Below, piece by piece: positions 23,092 through 32,925 of a stretch of 64,000 nt of DNA (positions are counted from its first letter, which is position 1; each line of letters begins with the position of its first letter). Origin of the DNA: Quadrisphaera setariae (GTDB lineage: Bacteria > Actinomycetota > Actinomycetes > Actinomycetales > Quadrisphaeraceae); the NCBI RefSeq assembly GCF_008041935.1, contig NZ_VKAC01000002.1, positions 310,001-374,000 of the forward strand, in the 5' to 3' direction. Position numbers and translations under genes: made by a program. The notes below the pieces were generated by a model that saw only the letters and a list, made by a program, of their open reading frames with translations, was not told where the DNA came from and did not search any database.

Positions 23092-23108
23092 ATGAGAACC
23101 GTTACTGT
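23092..23108 (+). promoter_or_regulatory. Zur-like box over the -10 of the ABC importer operon
   Basis: ATGAGAACCGT (23092-23102) is followed by TACTGT (23103-23108), a -10-like hexamer ending exactly 6 nt before the GTG at 23115. The first eleven bases differ by one from those at 29593-29603 at the MFS exporter start. The half-site AAC-C-GTT is symmetric, but the full 15-mer matches the actinobacterial Zur consensus only partly, so the regulator assignment is tentative. Confidence 0.45.
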
Positions 23109-23114
23109 TTCCCT

Positions 23115-23927
23115 GTGGAGGTGCTGCGGGTCCGTGGACTGACGGCCTCTTCCGACGGTCGCGCGCTGCTGCGCGGCGTCGACCTGGACGTGCTCGCAGC
23201 GGGCTCGCCGGGTGCCCGCACCGCGGTGGTCGGCGCGTCCGGATCCGGCAAGTCCCTCACCGCGTCCGCCGTGCTGGGGAGGGTCCCCCGAGGCGTGCGC
23301 GTCCGCGGGTCGGTGCGGGTCTGCGGACAGGAGGTCCTCGCCGTCCCGCCCCAGCGCCGCGACGGCGGGAGCCGACCGAGCAGCGTCGGACAGGACCCCT
23401 CGCGCGCCCTGCACCCGCTGGTCGCCGTGGGAGCCCAGGTCGCCGCGCCCCTGCGGGCGCTGGGGCGCGGTCGACGCGCCGCCCACCGCGAGGCCCTCGA
23501 GCTGCTCGCCGCCGTGGGCCTGCCCGGAGCCCGCACCGCCGCCGCCCGGCCCGCTGAGCTCTCCGGCGGCCAGCGCCAGCGGGTCTGCCTCGCCGTGGCG
23601 CTCGCCCGCCCCGGGCCGCTGCTCGTGGCGGACGAGCCCACCACCGCCCTCGACGTCGTCACGCAGACCGGTGTGGTGGAGCTCCTGCGCGAGCGCACGG
23701 GCGGCCCGGGGCAGCCCGCGCTCCTCTTCATCACCCACGACCTCGCCGTCGCCGCCGCGCTGTGCGACCGCGTGGTGGTGCTCCAGGACGGACGCGCTGC
23801 CGAGACCACCGGGGCCGCGCAGCTGCTCTCCGGAGCCAGCAGCGCTGCGGGACGAGGCCTGGTGGCCGCGGCGCGGCGCGCGGAGCGGGCGCTGCCGCCG
23901 CTCGCGCTGGCGGGCGGCTCCCGATGA
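23115..23927 (+). CDS. ABC importer ATPase 1 (nickel/opine/peptide type)
   Basis: 270 residues. Walker A GASGSGKSLTAS (41-52), Q-loop region, signature LSGGQRQRVCLA (near 152), Walker B LLVADEPTTALD (near 172) and H-loop FITHDLAVAA are present. The LTAS after Walker A is typical of DppD/NikD/CntD proteins. It energises import with the next three genes, all overlapping or closely spaced. The GTG start sits 6 nt after a TACTGT -10 overlapped by a Zur-like box. Confidence 0.88.
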   Translation: MEVLRVRGLTASSDGRALLRGVDLDVLAAGSPGARTAVVGASGSGKSLTASAVLGRVPRGVRVRGSVRVCGQEVLAVPPQRRDGGSRPSSVGQDPSRALHPLVAVGAQVAAPLRALGRGRRAAHREALELLAAVGLPGARTAAARPAELSGGQRQRVCLAVALARPGPLLVADEPTTALDVVTQTGVVELLRERTGGPGQPALLFITHDLAVAAALCDRVVVLQDGRAAETTGAAQLLSGASSAAGRGLVAAARRAERALPPLALAGGSR

Positions 23928-24865
23928 CCGGTGCGATGACTGGGACGGAGGCCGGGCCCACGAACGGCCGGGTGCCTGGTCTCGTGCTCAGCGCGCGCGG
24001 GCTGGTGCACCGGTACCGCACCCCTGCCGGCCTGCGGACCGTGCTGGACGGGGTCGACCTGGACGTCCGGGAGGGGGAGTCGCTCGCGCTCCTCGGGCGC
24101 TCCGGTGCGGGCAAGTCGACCCTCCTGCGGGTGCTGCTCGCACTGGAGGCCCCCGACGCCGGCACCGTCAGCGCGCTCAGCCCCGACGGCGCCGTCGACC
24201 CGGTGCACGACGCGGTGGAGGGTGCGGCGCTGAGGCCGGTCAGGCCCCACTGGCGCAGCGGCGCCCTGCGCTGGTACCGGCGGCTGGTCCAGCACGTCCC
24301 GCAGGACAGCGCCGCCAGCCTCGACCCCCGGCTGACCGCGCTGCAGGCCGTCGAGCAGCCGCTGGTGAGGCTGGGCCTGCACCGGGCTGGCAGCTCAGCG
24401 GCCCGTGAGCGCGCCGCGGAGTGCCTCGAGGACGTCGGAGTGGGCGCCGTGCTCCACGGCCACCGGCCCCGCCAGCTCTCCGGGGGCCAGGCCCAGCGCG
24501 TCGCGATCGCCCGGGCCCTGGCCCCCCGGCCCGCGCTCGTCCTGGCCGATGAACCCGTCAGCGGACTCGACGCCCCCCTGCGGGCGCACGTCCTCGACGC
24601 GCTCGCGCGGGCCCGGCGCACCACCACCCTCGTGGTGGTCAGCCACGACCTCGCCGCCGTCGCGGCCCTGTGCGAGCGCACCGCCGTCGTCCACGCCGGT
24701 CGCCTCGTGGAGGACCGCCTCACGCGCGACGTCCTCACCGACCCGCGCCACGAGGCCGCTCGCGAGCTCGTCGACGCGCTGCCGCGCCTGCCGTCGTCGT
24801 CCGCGCCGCTCCCGTCGTCCGCGCCGCTCCCGTCGTCCCGCGAGGACAGCCCGCACCTCACCTGA
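23924..24865 (+). CDS. ABC importer ATPase 2 (nickel/opine/peptide type)
   Basis: 313 residues. Walker A GRSGAGKSTL (59-68), signature LSGGQAQRVAIA (near 186), Walker B LVLADEPVSGLD (near 206) and VVSHDLAAVAAL are intact; it is a DppF/NikE/CntF-type subunit. ATG overlaps the first ATPase stop (ATGA). The C-terminus carries a Ser/Pro triplet-like repeat (SSAPLPSS, twice), which looks like slippage-prone low complexity. Confidence 0.88.
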   Translation: MTGAMTGTEAGPTNGRVPGLVLSARGLVHRYRTPAGLRTVLDGVDLDVREGESLALLGRSGAGKSTLLRVLLALEAPDAGTVSALSPDGAVDPVHDAVEGAALRPVRPHWRSGALRWYRRLVQHVPQDSAASLDPRLTALQAVEQPLVRLGLHRAGSSAARERAAECLEDVGVGAVLHGHRPRQLSGGQAQRVAIARALAPRPALVLADEPVSGLDAPLRAHVLDALARARRTTTLVVVSHDLAAVAALCERTAVVHAGRLVEDRLTRDVLTDPRHEAARELVDALPRLPSSSAPLPSSAPLPSSREDSPHLT

Positions 24866-24922
24866 GCCCGGCGCTCCCGCCGCCGGTGCCGCCGACCAGC
24901 ACCACCCACCCTGGAGGACCCC

Positions 24923-26548
24923 GTGCCACGCTCCCCCCTGCCCTCTCGCGCCCCCTCCGAGCTGCCCGGACACCGGCGCCCGCTGCGCGCCCCGCGCCGG
25001 CTGGCCCTGCGCCTGGCCGTCCCCGCGGCCGGGGTGCTGCTGCTCACGGGGTGCTTCGCCGGCTCGGCCGGCAGCTCCGACGACGGGGCGGGCGCCGCGG
25101 GCAGCACCGCGGCCCCCGGCGACGCCCGCATCCGCATCGCCCACCTGCAGCCGCCCCGCTCCGGCTTCTCCACGATCACCGACGACGCCTTCAAGATGGC
25201 GCGCTGGTCGAACGTCGAGACGCTGGTCACCCTCGACGAGGACGGCGACGCGCAGCCCCTGCTCGCCACCGCCTGGCAGCAGGTGGACGACACCACCTGG
25301 CGCTTCACCGTCCGCCAGGGCGTGCAGTTCCACGACGGGCAGGCGCTCACCGCCGCCGCCGTCGTCGGTTCCCTGACCGCGGCGGCCTCCGCGTCCCCTC
25401 CCCCGCGCATCCTCGACGGCGTGGGGCTGACCGCCGAGGTGGACCCGGCCGCCCCCGACGAGGCCGTGCTCGTGCGGACCACCGGTGCCGACCCGCTCCT
25501 GCCGCAGCGCCTCTCCAGCCCCCAGCTGGCGATCATGTCCCCGGCCGCCTACTCCACCGACGGCTCCGGGACCACGGTGGTCGACCCGGTCCGCCACGCC
25601 ACCGGGCCGTTCGTGCTGACCGCCGTCAACGGCACCTCGAGCGCCACCCTGGACCGCTTCGACGGCTACTGGGGCCAGAAGGCGGCCGCCGCGGGCATCG
25701 ACGCGGCGTTCGTGCCGGACGGCACCGCGCGCGCCGCCGCGCTGCGCACGGGCACCGCGGACCTCGTCGAGGCCGTCCCCGCGGGCCAGGCCTCCCTGCT
25801 CGACCCGGCCCTGCTGCACGAGGTGAAGATGCCCCGCACCAACACCCTGTACCTGAACACCTCCCGCGGCGCCTTCGCCGACCCGGCGGTGCGCGCCGCG
25901 GCGCGCGCGGCGATCGACCCGCAGAAGATCGTCGACACCGTCTACGAGGGCCGCGCCGACGCCGCGCAGGGCCTGCTCGGCCCGGCGCTGCCGTGGACGG
26001 CGGACCGCCCGCAGCGCACCCCCGTGGCCGCGCCGGCCGGCGCCGCGACCGGGAGGACCATCACCATCGGCACCTTCACCGACCGCGCCGAGCTCCCCGA
26101 GGTGGCGGTGCAGCTGCAGGCCCAGCTCGAGGCCGCCGGGTTCACGGTGCGGCAGGACGTGCGCGAGTACGCCCAGATCGAGGCCGACGCCCTGGCGGGG
26201 ACGTTCGACGCCTTCATCCTGTCGCGGGCCACGGTGCTCGACTCCGGTGACCCGGTGGCCTACCTGGCCAGCGACTTCAGCTGCGAGGGCTCCTTCAACA
26301 TCTCGCAGTTCTGCGACCCCGGCGTCGACGCCGCCATCGCCGAGGCCTCGGCCACGCCCGCCGGCCCCGAGCGCCGCGCGGCCGTGCTGGCCGCCGAGAA
26401 GCTCATCCTCGACGCCGACGCCGCGGTGCCGATGCTCCACGAGCGCGTGCTCCAGGGCGAGCAGCCGGGGGTGGCGGACGCCGCGCGCGACCCGCGCGAG
26501 CGCGCCCTGGTCACCACCCGCACGACGGTCGGGGCCACCGCGTCGTGA
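24923..26548 (+). CDS. Substrate-binding lipoprotein, SBP_bac_5 family
   Basis: 541 residues. A long N-terminus leads to lipobox LLLTGC (Cys 44). The mature protein has the peptide/nickel/opine-binding fold: DDTTWRFTVRQGVQFHDGQ, FDGYWGQKA, TNTLYLNTSRGAFADPAVR and a C-terminal domain-closing segment. It captures the ligand outside the membrane and hands it to the fused permease. The ligand could be a peptide, nickel chelate or opine metallophore; the Zur-like box and neighbouring exporter favour a metal complex (inference). GTG at 24923 has a GGAGG site upstream. Confidence 0.88.
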   Translation: MPRSPLPSRAPSELPGHRRPLRAPRRLALRLAVPAAGVLLLTGCFAGSAGSSDDGAGAAGSTAAPGDARIRIAHLQPPRSGFSTITDDAFKMARWSNVETLVTLDEDGDAQPLLATAWQQVDDTTWRFTVRQGVQFHDGQALTAAAVVGSLTAAASASPPPRILDGVGLTAEVDPAAPDEAVLVRTTGADPLLPQRLSSPQLAIMSPAAYSTDGSGTTVVDPVRHATGPFVLTAVNGTSSATLDRFDGYWGQKAAAAGIDAAFVPDGTARAAALRTGTADLVEAVPAGQASLLDPALLHEVKMPRTNTLYLNTSRGAFADPAVRAAARAAIDPQKIVDTVYEGRADAAQGLLGPALPWTADRPQRTPVAAPAGAATGRTITIGTFTDRAELPEVAVQLQAQLEAAGFTVRQDVREYAQIEADALAGTFDAFILSRATVLDSGDPVAYLASDFSCEGSFNISQFCDPGVDAAIAEASATPAGPERRAAVLAAEKLILDADAAVPMLHERVLQGEQPGVADAARDPRERALVTTRTTVGATAS

Positions 26549-28494
26549 GGCGTGTCCAGGGCGCTCTGTCCTCCGGCGCGCTGGCCTCCGGTGCGCTGGT
26601 CGGCGTCTCGCGCCTGGGGGCGCTGGCGGCGGCGCTCGTCGTCGTCGGCGCCCTCCCGTGGCTGTCGGGGCGCGACCCCGCGCTGACCGTGCTGCGGGCC
26701 CGGTCCGAGGAGCAGGTGGCCACTCCCGAGGCGCTCGCGTCCGTGCGGGAGGACCTCGGCCTGGCCCCCACCGCCGGGGGCCAGCTCCTGCGGTGGGCGT
26801 CCGGGGTGGCCCGCGGAGACCTGGGTGACTCCTGGGTCAGCGGCCGGCCCGTGCTGCCCGACGTGATCAGCGGGCTCGCGGTGTCCCTGACGCTCATGGG
26901 CTTCGCGATCGCGGTGGCCGCGGTGGTCGCTGCCGCCCTGGTGGCCCCGGCGCTGCGGGCAGCCGTGCGCGGGGACTCGCGCCGCAGCGGCGGTGCTGCT
27001 GCCGCGCTGCTGACCTCCCTGCCGGAGTTCCTGCTGGCCACGGCCCTGCTGGTGGTGCTCGCCGTGCAGCTGCGCTGGCTGCCGCCCTACGGCTGGGAGG
27101 GACCCCAGCACGCGGTGCTGCCGGCGCTGGCCCTCGGCCTGCCCGCGGGCGGCCTGCTCGGCCGCCTCCTCTCCGACGCCGTCAGCTCCGCCGCCGCCGA
27201 GCCCTGGGCGGCGACGTGGGCGACCGCGGGCACCACCCGGGCCCGCCTGGCGGGCGGCCTCCTGCTGCGCGCCGTGCCGGGCGTCGCCCCGCAGGTCGGC
27301 ATGGTGCTCGTGGGACTGGCCGGTGGCGCCGTGGCCGTCGAGCGGATCTTCGCCGTCCCCGGCATCGGCCGCACCAGCCTGGGGGCCGCCGGCGCGCAGG
27401 ACGCGCCGCTGCTGCAGGGGTGCGTCCTGGCGCTGCTCGTGGTGGGTGTCGCCTGCGGCGCCGGCGCGGCACTGCTGCGCCGCCTGGTGCTGGGACGGGC
27501 GCTGCGGACCGCGGGGCTGTCCGTGGCCGAGCCCGAGGCCGCACACGGCTGGGGCGCCCGCACGGTCCCCGTGGTCTGCGCCGTGCTGCTCGTCGGCACC
27601 ACGGTGGCCGGGCTGCTGCGCGACCCCTACGCCCCCGAGCACTCCCGGCTGGCACCGCCGAGCCTCGCGCTGCCGCTGGGCGCTGACGCCTCCGGGAGGG
27701 ACCTCCTGGCCCGCGTCGGGCACGGAGCCGCCTCGACCATCGGCACCGCGGTGCTCGTCTGCGCGCTCGCCGCGGCCGTCGGCATCGCCGCCGGGCTGCT
27801 GCCACGCCTGTCCACCGGCCCCGTCGAGGTGGCCAACGCCGCCCCGCCGGTGCTCGCCGGTCTCGTCACCGCCGCGGTCCTCGGGCCGAGCTCGCTCGGG
27901 GCGGCGGTCGCCGTGCTGGCCGTCTCCTGGGCCCCGCTGGCAGCGCACACCGCCGCGCTGGTCACCGAGGCCCGCGCCCAGCCGCACGTGCGCGTGATGC
28001 CGCTGCTGGGGGTGGGTCGGGCCCGCCTCCTCCTCGTCCACGTGCTGCCGGACGTGCTGCCCCCCGTGCTGCGCCACGCGGCGCTGCGCCTGCCGGGCGT
28101 CGCGCTGGCGCTGGCGTCGCTGGGGTTCCTGGGCCTCGGGCCGCAGCCGCCGGCCCCCGGCTGGGGCCTCGTGCTGGCGGAGGGGATGCCCTACGTGGAG
28201 CGGGCGCCCTGGGCCGTGCTCGCCCCGGCCGCCTCCCTCGTCGCGCTGTCCGTCCTGGCCGTGACCCTGTCGTCCCTGGGCGGCTCGTCGACGGGCGGCG
28301 CCTCGGCGGGCTCGCTCCGCAGGTGGCGTCGCACGCCCGCCACGAGCCCGGCGCTGAGCAGCGGGAACGACGCCAGCAGCAGCCAGGGGAGCGCTCTGGC
28401 CGGGCCGGTCGGGTCGGAGGCGTCCACCACGGAGCCCACCAGCCAGCTGCCCAGCAGCACGGCCACGCCGCCGCAGGTCGAGACCAGGCCGTAG
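26545..28494 (+). CDS. Fused DppB-DppC type ABC permease
   Basis: 649 residues carrying two permeases in one chain. Residues 1-320 are DppB-like (VSLTLMGFAIAVAAVV, LTSLPEFLLATALLVV, FAVPGIGRTSLGAA). Residues 330-575 are DppC-like (PLGADASGRDLLARVGHGA, RVMPLLGVGRARLLLVHVLP, GLGPQPPAPGWG). These are separate genes in most systems. Normal family sequence ends near residue 577. The last 70 residues are low complexity and read over the end of the convergent MFS gene, giving a 304-nt coding overlap. GTG overlaps the lipoprotein stop (GTGA). Confidence 0.87.
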   Translation: MRRVQGALSSGALASGALVGVSRLGALAAALVVVGALPWLSGRDPALTVLRARSEEQVATPEALASVREDLGLAPTAGGQLLRWASGVARGDLGDSWVSGRPVLPDVISGLAVSLTLMGFAIAVAAVVAAALVAPALRAAVRGDSRRSGGAAAALLTSLPEFLLATALLVVLAVQLRWLPPYGWEGPQHAVLPALALGLPAGGLLGRLLSDAVSSAAAEPWAATWATAGTTRARLAGGLLLRAVPGVAPQVGMVLVGLAGGAVAVERIFAVPGIGRTSLGAAGAQDAPLLQGCVLALLVVGVACGAGAALLRRLVLGRALRTAGLSVAEPEAAHGWGARTVPVVCAVLLVGTTVAGLLRDPYAPEHSRLAPPSLALPLGADASGRDLLARVGHGAASTIGTAVLVCALAAAVGIAAGLLPRLSTGPVEVANAAPPVLAGLVTAAVLGPSSLGAAVAVLAVSWAPLAAHTAALVTEARAQPHVRVMPLLGVGRARLLLVHVLPDVLPPVLRHAALRLPGVALALASLGFLGLGPQPPAPGWGLVLAEGMPYVERAPWAVLAPAASLVALSVLAVTLSSLGGSSTGGASAGSLRRWRRTPATSPALSSGNDASSSQGSALAGPVGSEASTTEPTSQLPSSTATPPQVETRP

Positions 28495-29594
28495 CGCGCG
28501 CCGAGGTCGCGGGCGGGGGAGAGCGCCGCGACCACGTCCCGGCCGACCGGCATGAGCAGCACCTGCCCGGCCGTCACGAGCACCACCAGGGCGGCGGCTC
28601 CGGCCAGCGCCGCGGTGGCCCCGCCCACCTGGCGGGAGGCGGCACCCGCCAGGACCGCGGCCACCAGCAGGCCGTGGCCGACCAGTAGTGCGGTCGGTGC
28701 TGTCCAGCGGTGGGAGGTCCACCGCAGCACGGGCATCTGCCCGACCACGACGAGCGCCGCGGAGGCCGCGAAGAGCACGCCGACGGCCACGTCGGCGGTG
28801 TCCCGCGGCACGCCCGCGCGGTCCAGCTCCAGCGGCAGCGTGAGGTAGAGCTGGTTGTAGACCACGAGGTAGCCGGCCTGCGCCAGCGCCACGGCGAGGA
28901 AGACCGGCTCGCGCAGCGCCGCTGCCACCCCCGCCACCAGCGGCGGACGCTGCTCGTCGTCGGCCCCGCCGGCCCCGCCGGCCCTGCCGGTCCCTCTGTC
29001 GGAAGCTCCGGCGCGGCGGGGCAGCAGCCGCCAGTGACCCACCAGGACGACGACGAACACCGCGGCCGCGACGAGGCAGGTGACCCGGAAGCCGACGAGG
29101 AGCAGAGCCGACCCGAGCACCGGCCCGGCCAGCGCGCCGACCTGGCCGGCCACCGAGAACAGGCCGAACGCCTCGCGCCGGTCGAGGCCCGCCCCGGGCG
29201 TCCCGGCGGCGCGCGCCAGCTCGGACTCGACGGCGGGGGAGAACATCGCCGCGGCGACGCCGGTGAGCAGGGCACCGGCGATGACGCCGGTGGCGCTCGT
29301 CGTCGTCCCCAGGAGCACGAAGCCGACCACGCGCACGGCGCAGCCGGTGAGCACGAGGGGACGGGGGCCGAACCTGTCCGCCAGGACCCCGCCCACCACG
29401 AACAGCCCCTGCTGGCTGGCGGTCCGCAGCCCCAGCACGAGGGCCACCGTGCCGGCGGCGAGGGCCAGGTCGCTCGCGAGGTGCACGGCGAGGAAGGGGA
29501 GCACGAGGTAGAAGCCGGTGTTGAAGGCGAGCTGGCTGAGCACCAGCAGGCGCACCAGCGGGCTGGCGCGGCGCAGCAGCTGGACGCTCGACAT
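28191..29594 (-). CDS. MFS transporter, probable exporter
   Basis: About 467 residues and twelve membrane segments. The MFS loop motif GGVLADRFGPRPLV sits near residue 75. A polar Asp/Gly-rich loop divides the two halves. It is convergent with the ABC importer. By analogy with staphylopine/pseudopaline systems (CntE/CntI), it could export the metallophore the importer recovers, but this is inference and no biosynthetic genes are adjacent. ATG at 29594 abuts a Zur-like box; an ATG at 29609 is the alternative. Its last 33 codons and the permease tail overlap. Confidence 0.82.
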   Translation of the reverse strand: MSSVQLLRRASPLVRLLVLSQLAFNTGFYLVLPFLAVHLASDLALAAGTVALVLGLRTASQQGLFVVGGVLADRFGPRPLVLTGCAVRVVGFVLLGTTTSATGVIAGALLTGVAAAMFSPAVESELARAAGTPGAGLDRREAFGLFSVAGQVGALAGPVLGSALLLVGFRVTCLVAAAVFVVVLVGHWRLLPRRAGASDRGTGRAGGAGGADDEQRPPLVAGVAAALREPVFLAVALAQAGYLVVYNQLYLTLPLELDRAGVPRDTADVAVGVLFAASAALVVVGQMPVLRWTSHRWTAPTALLVGHGLLVAAVLAGAASRQVGGATAALAGAAALVVLVTAGQVLLMPVGRDVVAALSPARDLGARYGLVSTCGGVAVLLGSWLVGSVVDASDPTGPARALPWLLLASFPLLSAGLVAGVRRHLRSEPAEAPPVDEPPRDDRVTARTDSATREAAGASTAQGARST

Positions 29595-29608
29595 GAGAAC
29601 CATCCTCA
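29593..29608 (-). promoter_or_regulatory. Zur-like palindrome at the MFS start codon
   Basis: On the plus strand, 29594-29608 reads TGAGAACCATCCTCA, a 7-1-7 imperfect palindrome (5 of 7 pairs) matching 10 of 15 positions of the actinobacterial Zur consensus as I recall it. It touches the ATG at 29594. Its left half is shared with the box at 23092. A repressor bound here would block transcription or translation start. Confidence 0.5.
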
Positions 29609-29628
29609 CCTACGAGCGAGGGTGAGGA
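29605..29628 (-). terminator. Short hairpin between reductase and MFS genes
   Basis: CCTCACC/GGTGAGG arms (about 29605-29610 and 29623-29628) fold within the 43-bp gap after the FAD reductase stop, next to the Zur-like box. It may attenuate read-through into the MFS gene. Support is structural only. Confidence 0.35.
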
Positions 29629-29637
29629 GGGGGCGGG

Positions 29638-30447
29638 TCAGGAGGGGCCGAAGCGCTCCACGCGGATGGACTCCGCGGGCACGCCGACCTCCACCAGCAG
29701 CTGCTCGGCCGCCGTCGTGAAGGGCGTGGACCCGCACAGGAACACGTCGGCACCCGGGCCACCACTGGCGCGCAGCGCACCGAGGCGGTCGGCGGCCGGC
29801 AGCAGGTCGTCGGCGCGCAGGCGGCCGGCGGGGCGACCGCTGGCGTCGTCGTCCTCGCGGGACAGCACCGCGGTGGTGAGGTCGGCGAAGGCGCCGGTGA
29901 GCTCGCCGGAGTAGAAGAGCTCCTCGCGCGTGCGCGCCGCAGCGACCAGGTGCACGGGCGCGCTGTCGCGACCTGCGACCAGGCGAGCCGCGCGAGACCG
30001 CAGCACGCACACCAGCGGAACCAGACCCGAGCCGCCACCCACGAGCAGCGCCGGTCGGTCACCGCGCCACACGAACCAGCCGCCGAACGGTCCGCGGACC
30101 TCCAGCGGATCACCGACCGCGACGTGCTCGTGCAGGTAGCCCGACACCTCGCCGTCCGGGAGCCTGTCGACCGTCAGCTCCACCACGCCCGGGTCCTCCG
30201 GGGGGCTCGCGACGCTGTACGAGCGCTGCGCGCGGTAGCCGTCGGGCGCGGTGAGGCGCACGAGGTAGTTCTGCCCGGGCAGGTGGGGCTGCCACTGCTC
30301 CAGCTGCACGCGGAACGTCTTCGCGTGCGGCGTCTCCTGGCGGACCTCGGTGACGGTGCCGGTCTGCCACGGGCGCTTGGCGCCGGTCGGGGGCACGCGG
30401 CGCCGCGGGGAGTCGAGCTGCGGCAGCTCGGGGAGCGCATCAGTCAC
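29638..30447 (-). CDS. FAD/NAD(P)H oxidoreductase (ferredoxin-reductase type)
   Basis: 269 residues. FAD motif RSYSVASPP (near 75), NAD(P) motif LLVGGGSGLVPL (near 134) and VFLCGSTPF near the C-terminus define the FNR fold. There is no C-terminal [2Fe-2S] domain. Its ATG overlaps the sulfite-oxidase-like gene stop by 8 bp, so it is the probable electron partner of that molybdoenzyme. The pair is frequent in actinobacteria. Confidence 0.9.
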   Translation of the reverse strand: MTDALPELPQLDSPRRRVPPTGAKRPWQTGTVTEVRQETPHAKTFRVQLEQWQPHLPGQNYLVRLTAPDGYRAQRSYSVASPPEDPGVVELTVDRLPDGEVSGYLHEHVAVGDPLEVRGPFGGWFVWRGDRPALLVGGGSGLVPLVCVLRSRAARLVAGRDSAPVHLVAAARTREELFYSGELTGAFADLTTAVLSREDDDASGRPAGRLRADDLLPAADRLGALRASGGPGADVFLCGSTPFTTAAEQLLVEVGVPAESIRVERFGPS

Positions 30448-31045
30448 CGGCGTACCGCTGCTCGGCCCACGGCTCGCCGCGGTCGTGGTACCCGTTGCGC
30501 TCCCAGAAGCCCGGCTCGTCGTGGTCGAGCAGGCGCAGCCCGGCGACCCACTTGGTGGACTTCCAGAAGTACAGGTGCGGCACGAGCATCCGCACCGGTC
30601 CGCCGTGCTCGGCGGTCAGCGGCGCCCCCTCGTGCTCCCACACGAGCCACGCCTTCCCGCCGGTCACGTCCGCCAGGGGCAGGTTGGTGGTGTAGCCGCT
30701 GCTGCTCCACGCCAGCACGTGCGTGGCGCTGGGCAGCACCTCGACCTGGTCCAGCAGCGCGTCGAGGCTGACCCCGGTGAAGCTGGTCCCCAGCTTGCTC
30801 CAGGTGGTGACGCAGTGGATGTCGCCCTCGTAGGACGACGACGGCAGCGCGTGCACGTCGTCCCAGGTCCACGTGCGGGGTGCGGTGACCTCGCCGTCCA
30901 CCCGGAAGGTCCACGTGCCGGTGCTGACGTTCGGCGTCGCCTCGGCGGTCAGCACCGGCCAGGAGCTGCCCACGTCGTACTGGCCGGGAGGCAGCCGGGG
31001 GTCGCGGCCGCGCCGCCCGGTGAAGCCTGTGCTGGAGGTGCTCAC
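30440..31045 (-). CDS. Sulfite-oxidase-like molybdopterin oxidoreductase
   Basis: About 201 residues, a stand-alone Moco domain of the sulfite oxidase family. The Mo-ligating Cys is C78 in DIHCVTTWSKLG, followed by FTGVSLDALLDQV and GGPVRMLVPHLYFWKSTKWV, both classic for the family. There is no twin-Arg signal, so it is likely cytoplasmic. The substrate is unknown; methionine sulfoxide or sulfite-like compounds are possible. GTG at 31045 overlaps the serB-fusion stop (GTGA). Confidence 0.9.
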   Translation of the reverse strand: MSTSSTGFTGRRGRDPRLPPGQYDVGSSWPVLTAEATPNVSTGTWTFRVDGEVTAPRTWTWDDVHALPSSSYEGDIHCVTTWSKLGTSFTGVSLDALLDQVEVLPSATHVLAWSSSGYTTNLPLADVTGGKAWLVWEHEGAPLTAEHGGPVRMLVPHLYFWKSTKWVAGLRLLDHDEPGFWERNGYHDRGEPWAEQRYAGD

Positions 31046-32925
31046 GCGCCCATCCCAGCAGCCCCTGAGCGGCACGTCGAGGCGGAGGTGGCCGTCGAGC
31101 CGTCGCCGACCCGGGCCAGCCGGTAGACCACGTGGTCGCGCGGGTCGAGGGGGTTGTCAGGAGTCATCTCACCTGCGGCGGCCCGCTCGAAGCCGGCCTT
31201 CTCCAGCGCCCGCCAGGAGGCGCGGTTGCCCAGCGGCACGGAGACCAGGACCTCGGGCGCGTCGGGGTGGCGCACGAGGCCCTCCGCCGCGGCCGCCGCG
31301 ATGACGGCGACGCCCAGGCCCCGTCCCTGCAGGTCGGGCTCGCCGATGAGGTAGTCGATCCCCAGCGCCCCGGCCGGCACGGGCAGCAGGGCCTCCAGCG
31401 CCGCGCGGCTGGCGGGCTCGTCGTCGTAGCGGTAGGTCTGCACGAAGCCGAACGCGCGGCCCCCGGCCGTCAGCGCCAGCGCCAGGGAGATGGGGTCGGT
31501 GCCGTCGATGCCGGGCCCGTAGTCGCGCTCGAGGGCCTCGGGCGTGTGCTCGTCCGGCCACCACCGGGCGACGCGCGGCTCGTCGAGCCAGCGGCCCAGC
31601 AGGGGGAGGTCCTCCCGGCGCAGCGGGCGCAGCGCCACCGCGCCCTGCAGGTCAGCAGCGTGCTCGCCGGCCCCCGCGCCGCCGCTGACGGGACGCCGCA
31701 CCTCGTCGGCCTCCTCGCGGCTGATGCCCAGCAGGTGCAGCACGCTGTCGAGGTAGGGGTTGTTGAGCGACGCGTCCGCCTGCTCGCGCACGAGCGGCTT
31801 GGCGTTGAACGCCACGCCCAGCCCCGCGGCGGCGATCATGTCGAGGTCGTTGGCGCCGTCGCCGACGGCCACCGTGCGGTCCAGGTCGAGCCCCTCGGCG
31901 CGGGCGAACTCGCGGAGCGCCGTCGCCTTGCCGGCCCGGTCGACCACGTCACCCAGGACCCGGCCCGTGAGCCGGCCGTCGACGACCTCCAGGCGGTTGG
32001 CGCGCACCCGGGCGATGCCCAGGCTCGCCGCCAGCGGCTCCACCACCTCGGCGAACCCGCCCGAGACCAGCGCCATGACGAACCCGAGCCGCTGCAGCAC
32101 CGAGCACAGCACCTCCGCGCCCGGCGTCAGCCGCACCGCGGCGCGCACCTCGGCGAGGATGCGGGCGTCGAGCCCCGCGAGGGCCTTGACGCGCTCGTGC
32201 AGCGACTCCGCGAAGTCGAGCTCGCCGCGCATCGCCCGCTCGGTGACCTCCGCCACCGCGCGCTGCGCCTCCGGGCCGGCGTGCGCCGCGATGAGCTCGA
32301 TCACCTCGTCCTGGATGAGCGTCGAGTCGACGTCGAGCACCACCAGCCGCCGCCCGTGCCGCACCAGCCCCGCCGGTGAGACGGCCACGTCCACCCCGGC
32401 GCTCGCGGCGACGGCGGCGAGGTCGCGGCGCAGCGCGGCCGGCTCGGCGCCCCGCACGTCGAGCTCCAGGCAGGTGACGGGGTGGTCGGGGGTGGCGGTG
32501 GCGAGGCTGCGGACGGCGTCGATCGACGCGCCCGCGTCGGCGACGGTGCCGGCCACCAGCGCCAGCTGCTCGGGTCGCAGGGGCGCAGCCAGCACCGTGA
32601 CGTGCGAGCGGGGACCGCTCGGGACGACGACGCCGGCGGCCGGGTCGTCGCTGCTGCCGCCGGGGGTGGTGGTGACCTCGAGGTCGAAGGGGGCGGCGGC
32701 GGCGCGCAGCGCCCGCTCCAGCTCGGCCGCGCGGTCGTCGTCACCGGTGCTGGACGGTCCGCGCGTGGTGAGCAGCGCGAGCGTGAGGTGGCCGCGGACC
32801 ACGTGCTGCTCGACGTCGAGCACCTCCAGGCCGCGGCCGGCCAGCGCCCCCAGCACCGCAGCGGTGACGCCGGGCCTGTCGGTGCCGGTGAGGGTCGCGA
32901 GCAGGGTGCTGGGGCTCTTCGGCAC
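31042..32925 (-). CDS. serB: Phosphoserine phosphatase fused to a GNAT acetyltransferase
   Basis: 627 residues in one frame. Two ACT-like domains (8-90 and 107-185) precede a HAD phosphatase with LDVDSTLIQDEV (197-208), MALVSGGFAEV, and GDGANDLDMIAAAGLGVAFNAKP, the standard actinobacterial SerB, which ends near residue 405. A Gly/Ala linker then leads to a GNAT domain (about 430-610): VALRPLRREDLPLLGRW, GIDYLIGEPDLQGRGLGV and NRASWRALEKAGFERA, resembling AAC(6')/IucB-like acetyltransferases. SerB makes serine; the GNAT substrate is unknown. GTG at 32925 is 6 nt after TAGCGT (32932-32937). Confidence 0.9.
   Translation of the reverse strand: MPKSPSTLLATLTGTDRPGVTAAVLGALAGRGLEVLDVEQHVVRGHLTLALLTTRGPSSTGDDDRAAELERALRAAAAPFDLEVTTTPGGSSDDPAAGVVVPSGPRSHVTVLAAPLRPEQLALVAGTVADAGASIDAVRSLATATPDHPVTCLELDVRGAEPAALRRDLAAVAASAGVDVAVSPAGLVRHGRRLVVLDVDSTLIQDEVIELIAAHAGPEAQRAVAEVTERAMRGELDFAESLHERVKALAGLDARILAEVRAAVRLTPGAEVLCSVLQRLGFVMALVSGGFAEVVEPLAASLGIARVRANRLEVVDGRLTGRVLGDVVDRAGKATALREFARAEGLDLDRTVAVGDGANDLDMIAAAGLGVAFNAKPLVREQADASLNNPYLDSVLHLLGISREEADEVRRPVSGGAGAGEHAADLQGAVALRPLRREDLPLLGRWLDEPRVARWWPDEHTPEALERDYGPGIDGTDPISLALALTAGGRAFGFVQTYRYDDEPASRAALEALLPVPAGALGIDYLIGEPDLQGRGLGVAVIAAAAAEGLVRHPDAPEVLVSVPLGNRASWRALEKAGFERAAAGEMTPDNPLDPRDHVVYRLARVGDGSTATSASTCRSGAAGMGA

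Follow-up and report, generated by a model that had tools for sequence, protein, structure and literature searches.

A putative Zur-repressed, NikA-like importer and its major facilitator partner in Quadrisphaera setariae and in distant bacteria

The 64,000-nucleotide stretch of Quadrisphaera setariae DNA analyzed here (the window; contig NZ_VKAC01000002.1, positions 310,001 to 374,000) contains, between positions 23092 and 29609, genes for an ATP-binding cassette (ABC) importer of the nickel/peptide type and a convergent gene for a major facilitator superfamily (MFS) transporter. An initial annotation compared these parts to the import and export components of opine-metallophore (Cnt) systems, and placed a box resembling the operator of the zinc regulator Zur at the start of each transcription unit. 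The locus raises the question of which signal would switch on such a pair of transporters, and what they would carry. The explanation that we consider probable from the sequence comparisons is that Zur represses the locus as a zinc-starvation module, in which a NikA-like importer takes up a small zinc chelate and the MFS partner most likely exports the chelator.

Control of the locus by Zur is strongly supported, beginning with the two boxes themselves. As initially reported, nearly identical sequences stand at the starts of the two units: ATGAGAACCNT occurs exactly at 23092-23102 and 29593-29603 and nowhere else in the window, and allowing up to one mismatch gives three matches, a number reached in 0 of 100 shuffles. 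The palindrome described at the second site, TGAGAACCATCCTCA, is also present, as the only exact copy both in the window and in the whole 4.9-Mb genome, and the box at the first site lies over a predicted −10 element 6 nt before the start codon. To avoid circularity, an independent Zur matrix was built from eight boxes of other zinc genes, excluding those of the locus: two where rpsN2 and rpmE2 lie together with a gene for a COG0523-type GTPase, three at aztD (own genome, G003 and G005), and three at a znuA/aztC-like gene that adjoins one of the Fur family (own genome, G004 and G007). Training genes in relatives were identified by eye, and those in the own genome were checked with family models, with AztD, type B L31 and S14 scoring above cut-off and the COG0523-type GTPase and the AztC-like solute-binding protein (SBP) scoring below. 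Leave-one-out scores of the matrix were 17 to 30. The two sites of the locus rank first and second in the window, at 21.0 and 20.05, and the third site scores 13.06; 0.017 such sites are expected per 64 kb, based on a second-order Markov background and 60 simulated windows. The sequence TGANAANNNTTNTCR occurs exactly at four places in the genome, three at zinc genes and the fourth within a called coding frame. The Fur-family gene that adjoins the boxed AztC/ZnuA-like gene in the own genome scored 50 of 167 bits with the NCBIfam Zur model, and somewhat higher with Fur models.

The boxes recur in related genomes. Among 149 genomes, a first tier of 12 genomes was defined that includes the window (the binding proteins of the other 11 are 59-89% identical), and a second tier of nine in which identity is 35-44%. 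In all 10 first-tier loci that have the 5' end, the site before the gene for ATPase 1 ranks first or second in the stretch by matrix score, with scores from 11.8 to 26.9, the lower-GC loci giving modest values of 11.8 to 15.7. Where this site ranks second, the top site precedes the MFS gene in L065, lies at rpmE2 in L068 and is located elsewhere in L073. All six Quadrisphaera genomes that hold the ATPase 1 box have it overlapping TACTGT or TATGGT, 6 nt before a GTG, and the MFS box is present in 4/4 Quadrisphaera genomes that hold that region. By contrast, an operon-start site was found in only one of the nine second-tier loci (L076); weaker sites in L081 (15.8 and 12.7), located 0.3 to 0.7 kb before the binding-protein gene, were not counted. 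For the mid-tier loci L208-L212 (47-50%), one one-mismatch and one two-mismatch site lie ~30 bp before the binding-protein match and three loci have sites elsewhere only, while no site was found in L206 and L207, whose stretches stop short of the operon start. In G011, the operon is ~4.7 kb from rpmE2, with rpsN2 beyond (by eye), and in Kineococcus siccus rpmE2 lies ~1.8 kb past the permease match. One record titled Streptomyces sp. NP160 (L116) encodes a binding protein 89% identical to that of the window, with the same upstream genes; it looks like Quadrisphaera, and its name looks wrong.

Additional evidence for Zur control came from far more distant carriers. A profile scan of one-genome-per-species contigs recovered 512 stretches with binding-protein relatives, and the best 80 of these, 60-89% identical, are the named loci: 40 actinobacterial, one alphaproteobacterial and 39 from Gammaproteobacteria. 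Orthologues with 60-67% identical binding proteins are found across Actinomycetota (Quadrisphaera, Kineococcus, Rhodococcus, Arthrobacter, Streptomyces, Clavibacter, Modestobacter and others) and also in Proteobacteria, where the gamma carriers are Pectobacterium, Dickeya, Brenneria, Rahnella, Hafnia, Serratia, Pantoea, Tatumella, Halomonas/Vreelandella, Kushneria and others. In a motif-exchange test, a 140-bp region about the projected lead-gene start was scored with the Zur motif of the host group, and 200 dinucleotide shuffles served as the comparison; the local motif was the published E. coli one (PMC6103462) for gamma loci and TGANAANNNTTNTCA for actinobacterial loci. The test took in 77 of the 80 loci (39 gamma and 38 actinobacterial); L117 and L166, which have no 5' end, and the alphaproteobacterial L167 were left out. 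With the local motif, 37/39 gamma loci reached p ≤ 0.05 (28 at p ≤ 0.01), as did 26/38 actinobacterial loci (14 at p ≤ 0.01). When the motifs were exchanged, p ≤ 0.05 was reached by 0/39 gamma and 2/38 actinobacterial loci. Loci of one genus are not independent in these counts, and the gamma set covers 14 named genera (Halomonas counted with Vreelandella) and one unassigned Enterobacterales genome. An earlier, less strict test, in which the comparison windows were mostly coding, gave 39/39 and 28/38 at p ≤ 0.05, and L167 scored 14 of 18 (empirical p 0.000). The Zur control initially proposed from two boxes is thus supported by an independent matrix, by conservation in relatives and by the exchange of motifs between phyla. 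Importer genes in distant bacterial groups, each tied to that group's own type of zinc-sensor site, are most likely induced in zinc starvation.

Searches for TGTKATRNTATNACA in eight enterobacterial genomes gave few sites, with the backwards-read pattern occurring 0 or 1 times per strand. An exact site precedes the importer operon in seven of the eight, with Tatumella having no exact site at the operon. In the 26 stretches read, with genes named by eye (some sites had no stretch to read), the other sites lie before type-B-L31-like rpmE2 genes (six genomes), COG0523 and znu-like genes, an AztD-like gene, a folE2-like gene and a FecB-like ABC pair. This last pair, an ABC ATPase and a FecB-like binding protein preceded by the same Zur-like sequence in L218, L221 and L233 (Dickeya and Pectobacterium; by eye), is a candidate second zinc-chelate importer. 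In a 43-row, midpoint-rooted tree, from which row L174 was dropped for an internal stop, the rows from Proteobacteria fall into two starred clades (Enterobacterales, and Halomonadaceae with Paracoccaceae) within the first-tier group, and Streptomyces and Saccharothrix fall outside (87/98, not starred). This topology suggests transfer between phyla, once or twice.

The open reading frames and domains are as initially described, and all the parts of a cluster C (PepT-type) ABC importer are present: SBP_bac_5, two BPD_transp_1 units and two ABC ATPases. SBP_bac_5 is the sole family match of the binding protein at E ≤ 0.001, with no match to the ZnuA/AztC type of the cluster A-I zinc importers (Znu/Azt). 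Along the fused permease, family models matched at residues 27-315 (NikB), 358-574 (NikC) and 366-575 (Opp2C). Scores stayed below the equivalog cut-offs throughout NikABCDE (NikD 151/319, NikE 180/333, NikB 137/447, NikC 98/358 and Opp5A_NikA 171/600 bits). The initial annotation had proposed comparing a predicted structure of the lipoprotein with CntA and NikA. In an AlphaFold model from a 24-row alignment, with a mean predicted local distance difference test (pLDDT) score of 80, Staphylococcus aureus NikA came first by Foldseek and VIA-align, with Z scores of 38.2 and 38.0 (PDB 3rqt and 4xkr); AapF (36.2), dipeptide-binding proteins (34.6) and OppA (32.5) scored lower, and S. aureus CntA ranked 43 in Foldseek. 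By sequence profile, S. aureus NikA is among the three nearest solved proteins, after a nickel-binding protein of Bacillus halodurans and a family 5 protein of Bacillus anthracis. Family models gave 171 bits for the NikA type, 84 for glutathione-binding GsiB, 49 for DppA and 32 for OppA. Since the differences between structural scores are small, they indicate a NikA-like fold and not a ligand. The earlier assignment to a nickel type rather than an oligopeptide type is supported, short of proof, by fold and model score. A cysteine pair, C454 and C464, is conserved in 90% or more of the 24 rows of the alignment and may form a disulphide; the strict pattern occurs in 31/80 named loci and in 1/23 more distant ones.

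The MFS partner was traced through the same named loci. Its relatives lie near the importer in 37 of the 80, are near full-length, and are 35-48% identical outside the genus; the home-made gene caller misses and over-extends genes, such that 37 may be an undercount. The MFS gene is convergent in Quadrisphaera, follows the permease in Rhodococcus, precedes ATPase 1 in an Enterobacter, and in Pectobacterium, Arthrobacter and Clavibacter separates the gene for the binding protein from that for ATPase 2. Given that the linkage persists through many rearrangements, the MFS protein probably shares the importer's task, and may export the chelator. For the initial picture of an exporter facing an importer, the data thus favor the functional pairing, with the direction of export being a prediction only. 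The protein has an MFS_1 domain, and its best NCBIfam model is MdtH (103 of 469 bits), with no Cnt exporter model among the 13 listed. Two Rahnella loci (L153:12299 and L158:12295) have a gene for a drug/metabolite transporter (DMT)/EamA-type exporter after the permease, the model match in L158 being under cut-off. Exporters of this type accompany opine zincophores elsewhere (PMC7438024). One gene family lies 3' of the permease in 14 Enterobacterales loci, and its member in L130 (12473-13948) is an AMP nucleosidase, above cut-off.

These observations can be accommodated in a simple model. With zinc present, Zn-Zur would occupy the two boxes, which lie over the core promoters. As zinc falls, both units, which are probably leaderless, would be expressed. 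The NikA-like lipoprotein would then capture a small zinc chelate for import by the fused permease and the two ATPases, an assignment that follows the family for the class of importer and is predicted for the ligand. The MFS protein would export the chelator, emptied or newly made, to fetch more zinc. The chelator would probably be an environmental compound or a housekeeping metabolite; scavenging or use of a common metabolite is favored over a private opine because no linked synthesis genes were recognized.

Several observations weigh against this model. The nearest solved structures bind nickel chelates, and zinc is suggested by the regulation only. In the box at 23093, the left half is full, plus TT, and the right half is degenerate, with three mismatches to TGANAANNNTTNTCA; in the exchange test, 12/38 actinobacterial and 2/39 gamma loci missed p ≤ 0.05. 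No MFS relative was called in 43/80 loci, some of them on contigs that stop short, and the importer can thus probably function alone; the MFS protein is also closest to drug pumps and exporters such as MdtH, which makes other cargo possible. Lastly, no linked outer-membrane receptor was recognized in the Gram-negative carriers, where the chelate would have to enter through porins or by way of a receptor encoded elsewhere.

Some of these points would fit an importer of nickel or cobalt that is incidentally under Zur, for example bringing in a replacement metal during zinc starvation, next to an unrelated MFS gene. The nickel chelates bound by the closest solved relatives agree with such an importer, as does the finding that the NikD, NikE, NikB and NikA-type models are best or near best. 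However, the nickel equivalog cut-offs were not reached, the regulation follows zinc genes in two phyla, and the MFS gene follows the importer through several gene orders, making this explanation unlikely. An importer induced in zinc starvation might instead scavenge peptides, or sources of cysteine or histidine, in place of a metal chelate. Peptides are the cargo of many SBP_bac_5 proteins, the dipeptide-binding proteins and signal-binding AapF are good structural matches too, and the GsiB model gives 84 bits; yet NikA is the best match by structure, with OppA lower, the NikA-type model far outscores DppA and OppA, and the regulation is that of zinc genes. We consider a peptide importer improbable.

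The third alternative is the one suggested by the initial annotation: a true Cnt system with its synthesis genes elsewhere in the genome, in which the MFS protein exports an opine and the ABC importer takes up the zinc complex. The parts list and the Zur control are the same as those of Cnt. Membership of the Cnt family was not upheld: Cnt models scored far under cut-off (CntA 57 of 800, CntC 50 of 440, CntD 119 of 380 and CntF 119 of 385 bits), CntA was a more distant match, and nicotianamine synthase (PF03059, CntL-like) had no match in the 12 first-tier genomes, the own genome among them. The PF03059 search works, since 10/149 genomes and 1/14 control genomes matched; opine dehydrogenase CntM (PF10100) matched 0/149 genomes, but also 0/14 controls. 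In line with the reported lack of cntKLM-like genes at the locus, no linked synthesis genes or outer-membrane receptors were recognized among families shared by at least four of the 80 loci or, by eye, among 30 neighbors, single genes not all being annotated. There was likewise no sign of a chelator made elsewhere in the genome. The exact TGANAANNNTTNTCR places are the three zinc genes and one coding frame noted above, and inspection by eye of the own-genome places with one mismatch to the box showed nothing that resembled a synthesis cluster, although one whose box is weaker or missing would escape. Arguments for a Cnt system come from the second tier, where 6/9 genomes have nicotianamine synthase, compared with 4/140 others (by genus 3/6 vs 3/59, p = 0.008), and from a Zur-like box (one mismatch) directly before the synthase-like gene or the gene ahead of it in 5 of 10 actinobacterial synthase loci (L196, L198, L204, L205 and L202:7586). 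However, an operon-start Zur-like box was found in only 1/6 second-tier loci of synthase-bearing genomes (L076), and in a 396-genome sample of the phylum, 12 genomes have a relative, four have the synthase and only one has both. Taken together, a Cnt system has little probability. Nicotianamine as the ligand, promising from the second tier, is disfavored by the first-tier and phylum-wide counts and is a weak lead. In four of the five boxed synthase loci, all from one genus, the box precedes a GNAT-family gene located ahead of the synthase; the boxed loci represent a possible zinc-starvation pathway of the nicotianamine type.

A broader version of the zinc-chelate model is that the genes are a mobile zincophore-uptake module without synthesis genes of its own, whose carriers draw, by sharing or by theft, on a zinc chelate that is public property, such as a nicotianamine-type compound from plants or other microbes. 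Such a module would have crossed between Actinomycetota and Proteobacteria, with its promoter remade for each host's Zur. We regard this version as tentative and somewhat doubtful.

Comparison with known systems places the locus in a class of Zur-controlled importers already known in Paracoccus, Corynebacterium and Staphylococcus. The S. aureus Cnt system has linked synthesis genes, and its models are far under cut-off for the window locus. S. aureus NikA is the nearest solved fold and the third-nearest solved sequence by profile, but is only ~20-22% identical to the window protein and, from the entry title, holds a complex of the nickel-histidine type. CntABCDF with CntE (staphylopine) resembles the locus in having an SBP_bac_5-type importer and a dedicated exporter, and in responding to zinc, as described in part in PMC7438024 and PMC6711530. 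The Paracoccus denitrificans operon pden1341-1344, compared by description, is likewise a Zur-regulated cluster C (Ni/dipeptide-type) ABC operon. It is upregulated ~8 to 16 fold in zinc limitation and has a Zur motif in its promoter that is bound by Zur in an electrophoretic mobility shift assay; its authors leave the ligand unassigned and call the operon “somewhat unusual” (PMC5387054). It encodes an SBP, two separate permeases and one ATPase, in contrast to the single fused permease, two ATPases and MFS partner found here. Corynebacterium diphtheriae dip2162-2165 is an actinobacterial NikA/OppA-like ABC operon under Zur that its authors likened to CntABCDF. Unlike the window locus, it is divergent from the NRPS/PKS (nonribosomal peptide synthetase/polyketide synthase) genes sidAB, is also controlled by iron (DtxR), and has two permeases and one ATPase; the text does not use the term MFS (PMC6711530). 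Ethylenediamine disuccinate (EDDS) and coelibactin are Zur-controlled zinc chelators of actinomycetes (PMC6103462). They are made by synthesis clusters, none of which was recognized in the window genome. In a zur mutant of Pectobacterium odoriferum, genes of the ABC-transporter and quorum-sensing pathways changed, with the operon not named in the part of PMC10298282 available; the change would fit peptide-type ABC genes. A survey of opine zincophores relied on CntM and would for that reason miss this module (PMC7438024). A literature search found no published description of this operon; regulon databases such as RegPrecise lay outside the search, and an earlier prediction is possible.

The features of the locus are listed in the table. 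The convergent permease and MFS frames share their last 304 bp (28191-28494), and each is ~50 residues longer than its relatives in other genera. Genes for a molybdopterin oxidoreductase (MsrP/SoxC-like) and an FAD/NAD reductase (29638-31075, minus strand) lie 43 bp upstream of the MFS gene on the same strand, an order that is kept in the Quadrisphaera relatives that hold the region.

Table. Genes and predicted regulatory elements of the locus, in window coordinates
Feature	Position	Strand	Remarks
ATPase 1, NikD-like	23115-23927	+	GTG start; probably leaderless; best NCBIfam NikD, 151 bits (cut-off 318.7)
ATPase 2, NikE-like	23924-24865	+	best NCBIfam NikE, 180 bits (cut-off 332.6)
SBP_bac_5 lipoprotein, NikA-like	24923-26548	+	Pfam 191 bits; LTGC lipobox by eye
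Fused permease, NikB-like half then NikC-like half, single open reading frame	26545-28494	+	two BPD_transp_1 stretches
MFS transporter, MdtH-like superfamily member	28191-29594	-	ATG at 29594
Zur-like box TGAGAACCGTTACTG, overlapping putative −10 of importer operon	23093-23107	.	matrix score and conservation in relatives
Putative −10, TACTGT	23103-23108	+	6 nt before GTG at 23115; from sequence
Zur-like 15-bp palindrome, ending at the A of the MFS start codon; minus strand TGAGGATGGTTCTCA	29594-29608	.	matrix score and conservation in relatives

The best 80 of 512 relatives represent operons that are tied to zinc starvation in two phyla through two different operator sequences. The question of which zinc chelate these bacteria take up thereby becomes directly testable with a single purified protein. 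An answer would also give names to operons that are likely annotated as peptide or nickel transporters, and would offer a clear example of an operon that came under the control of a local regulator after its transfer.

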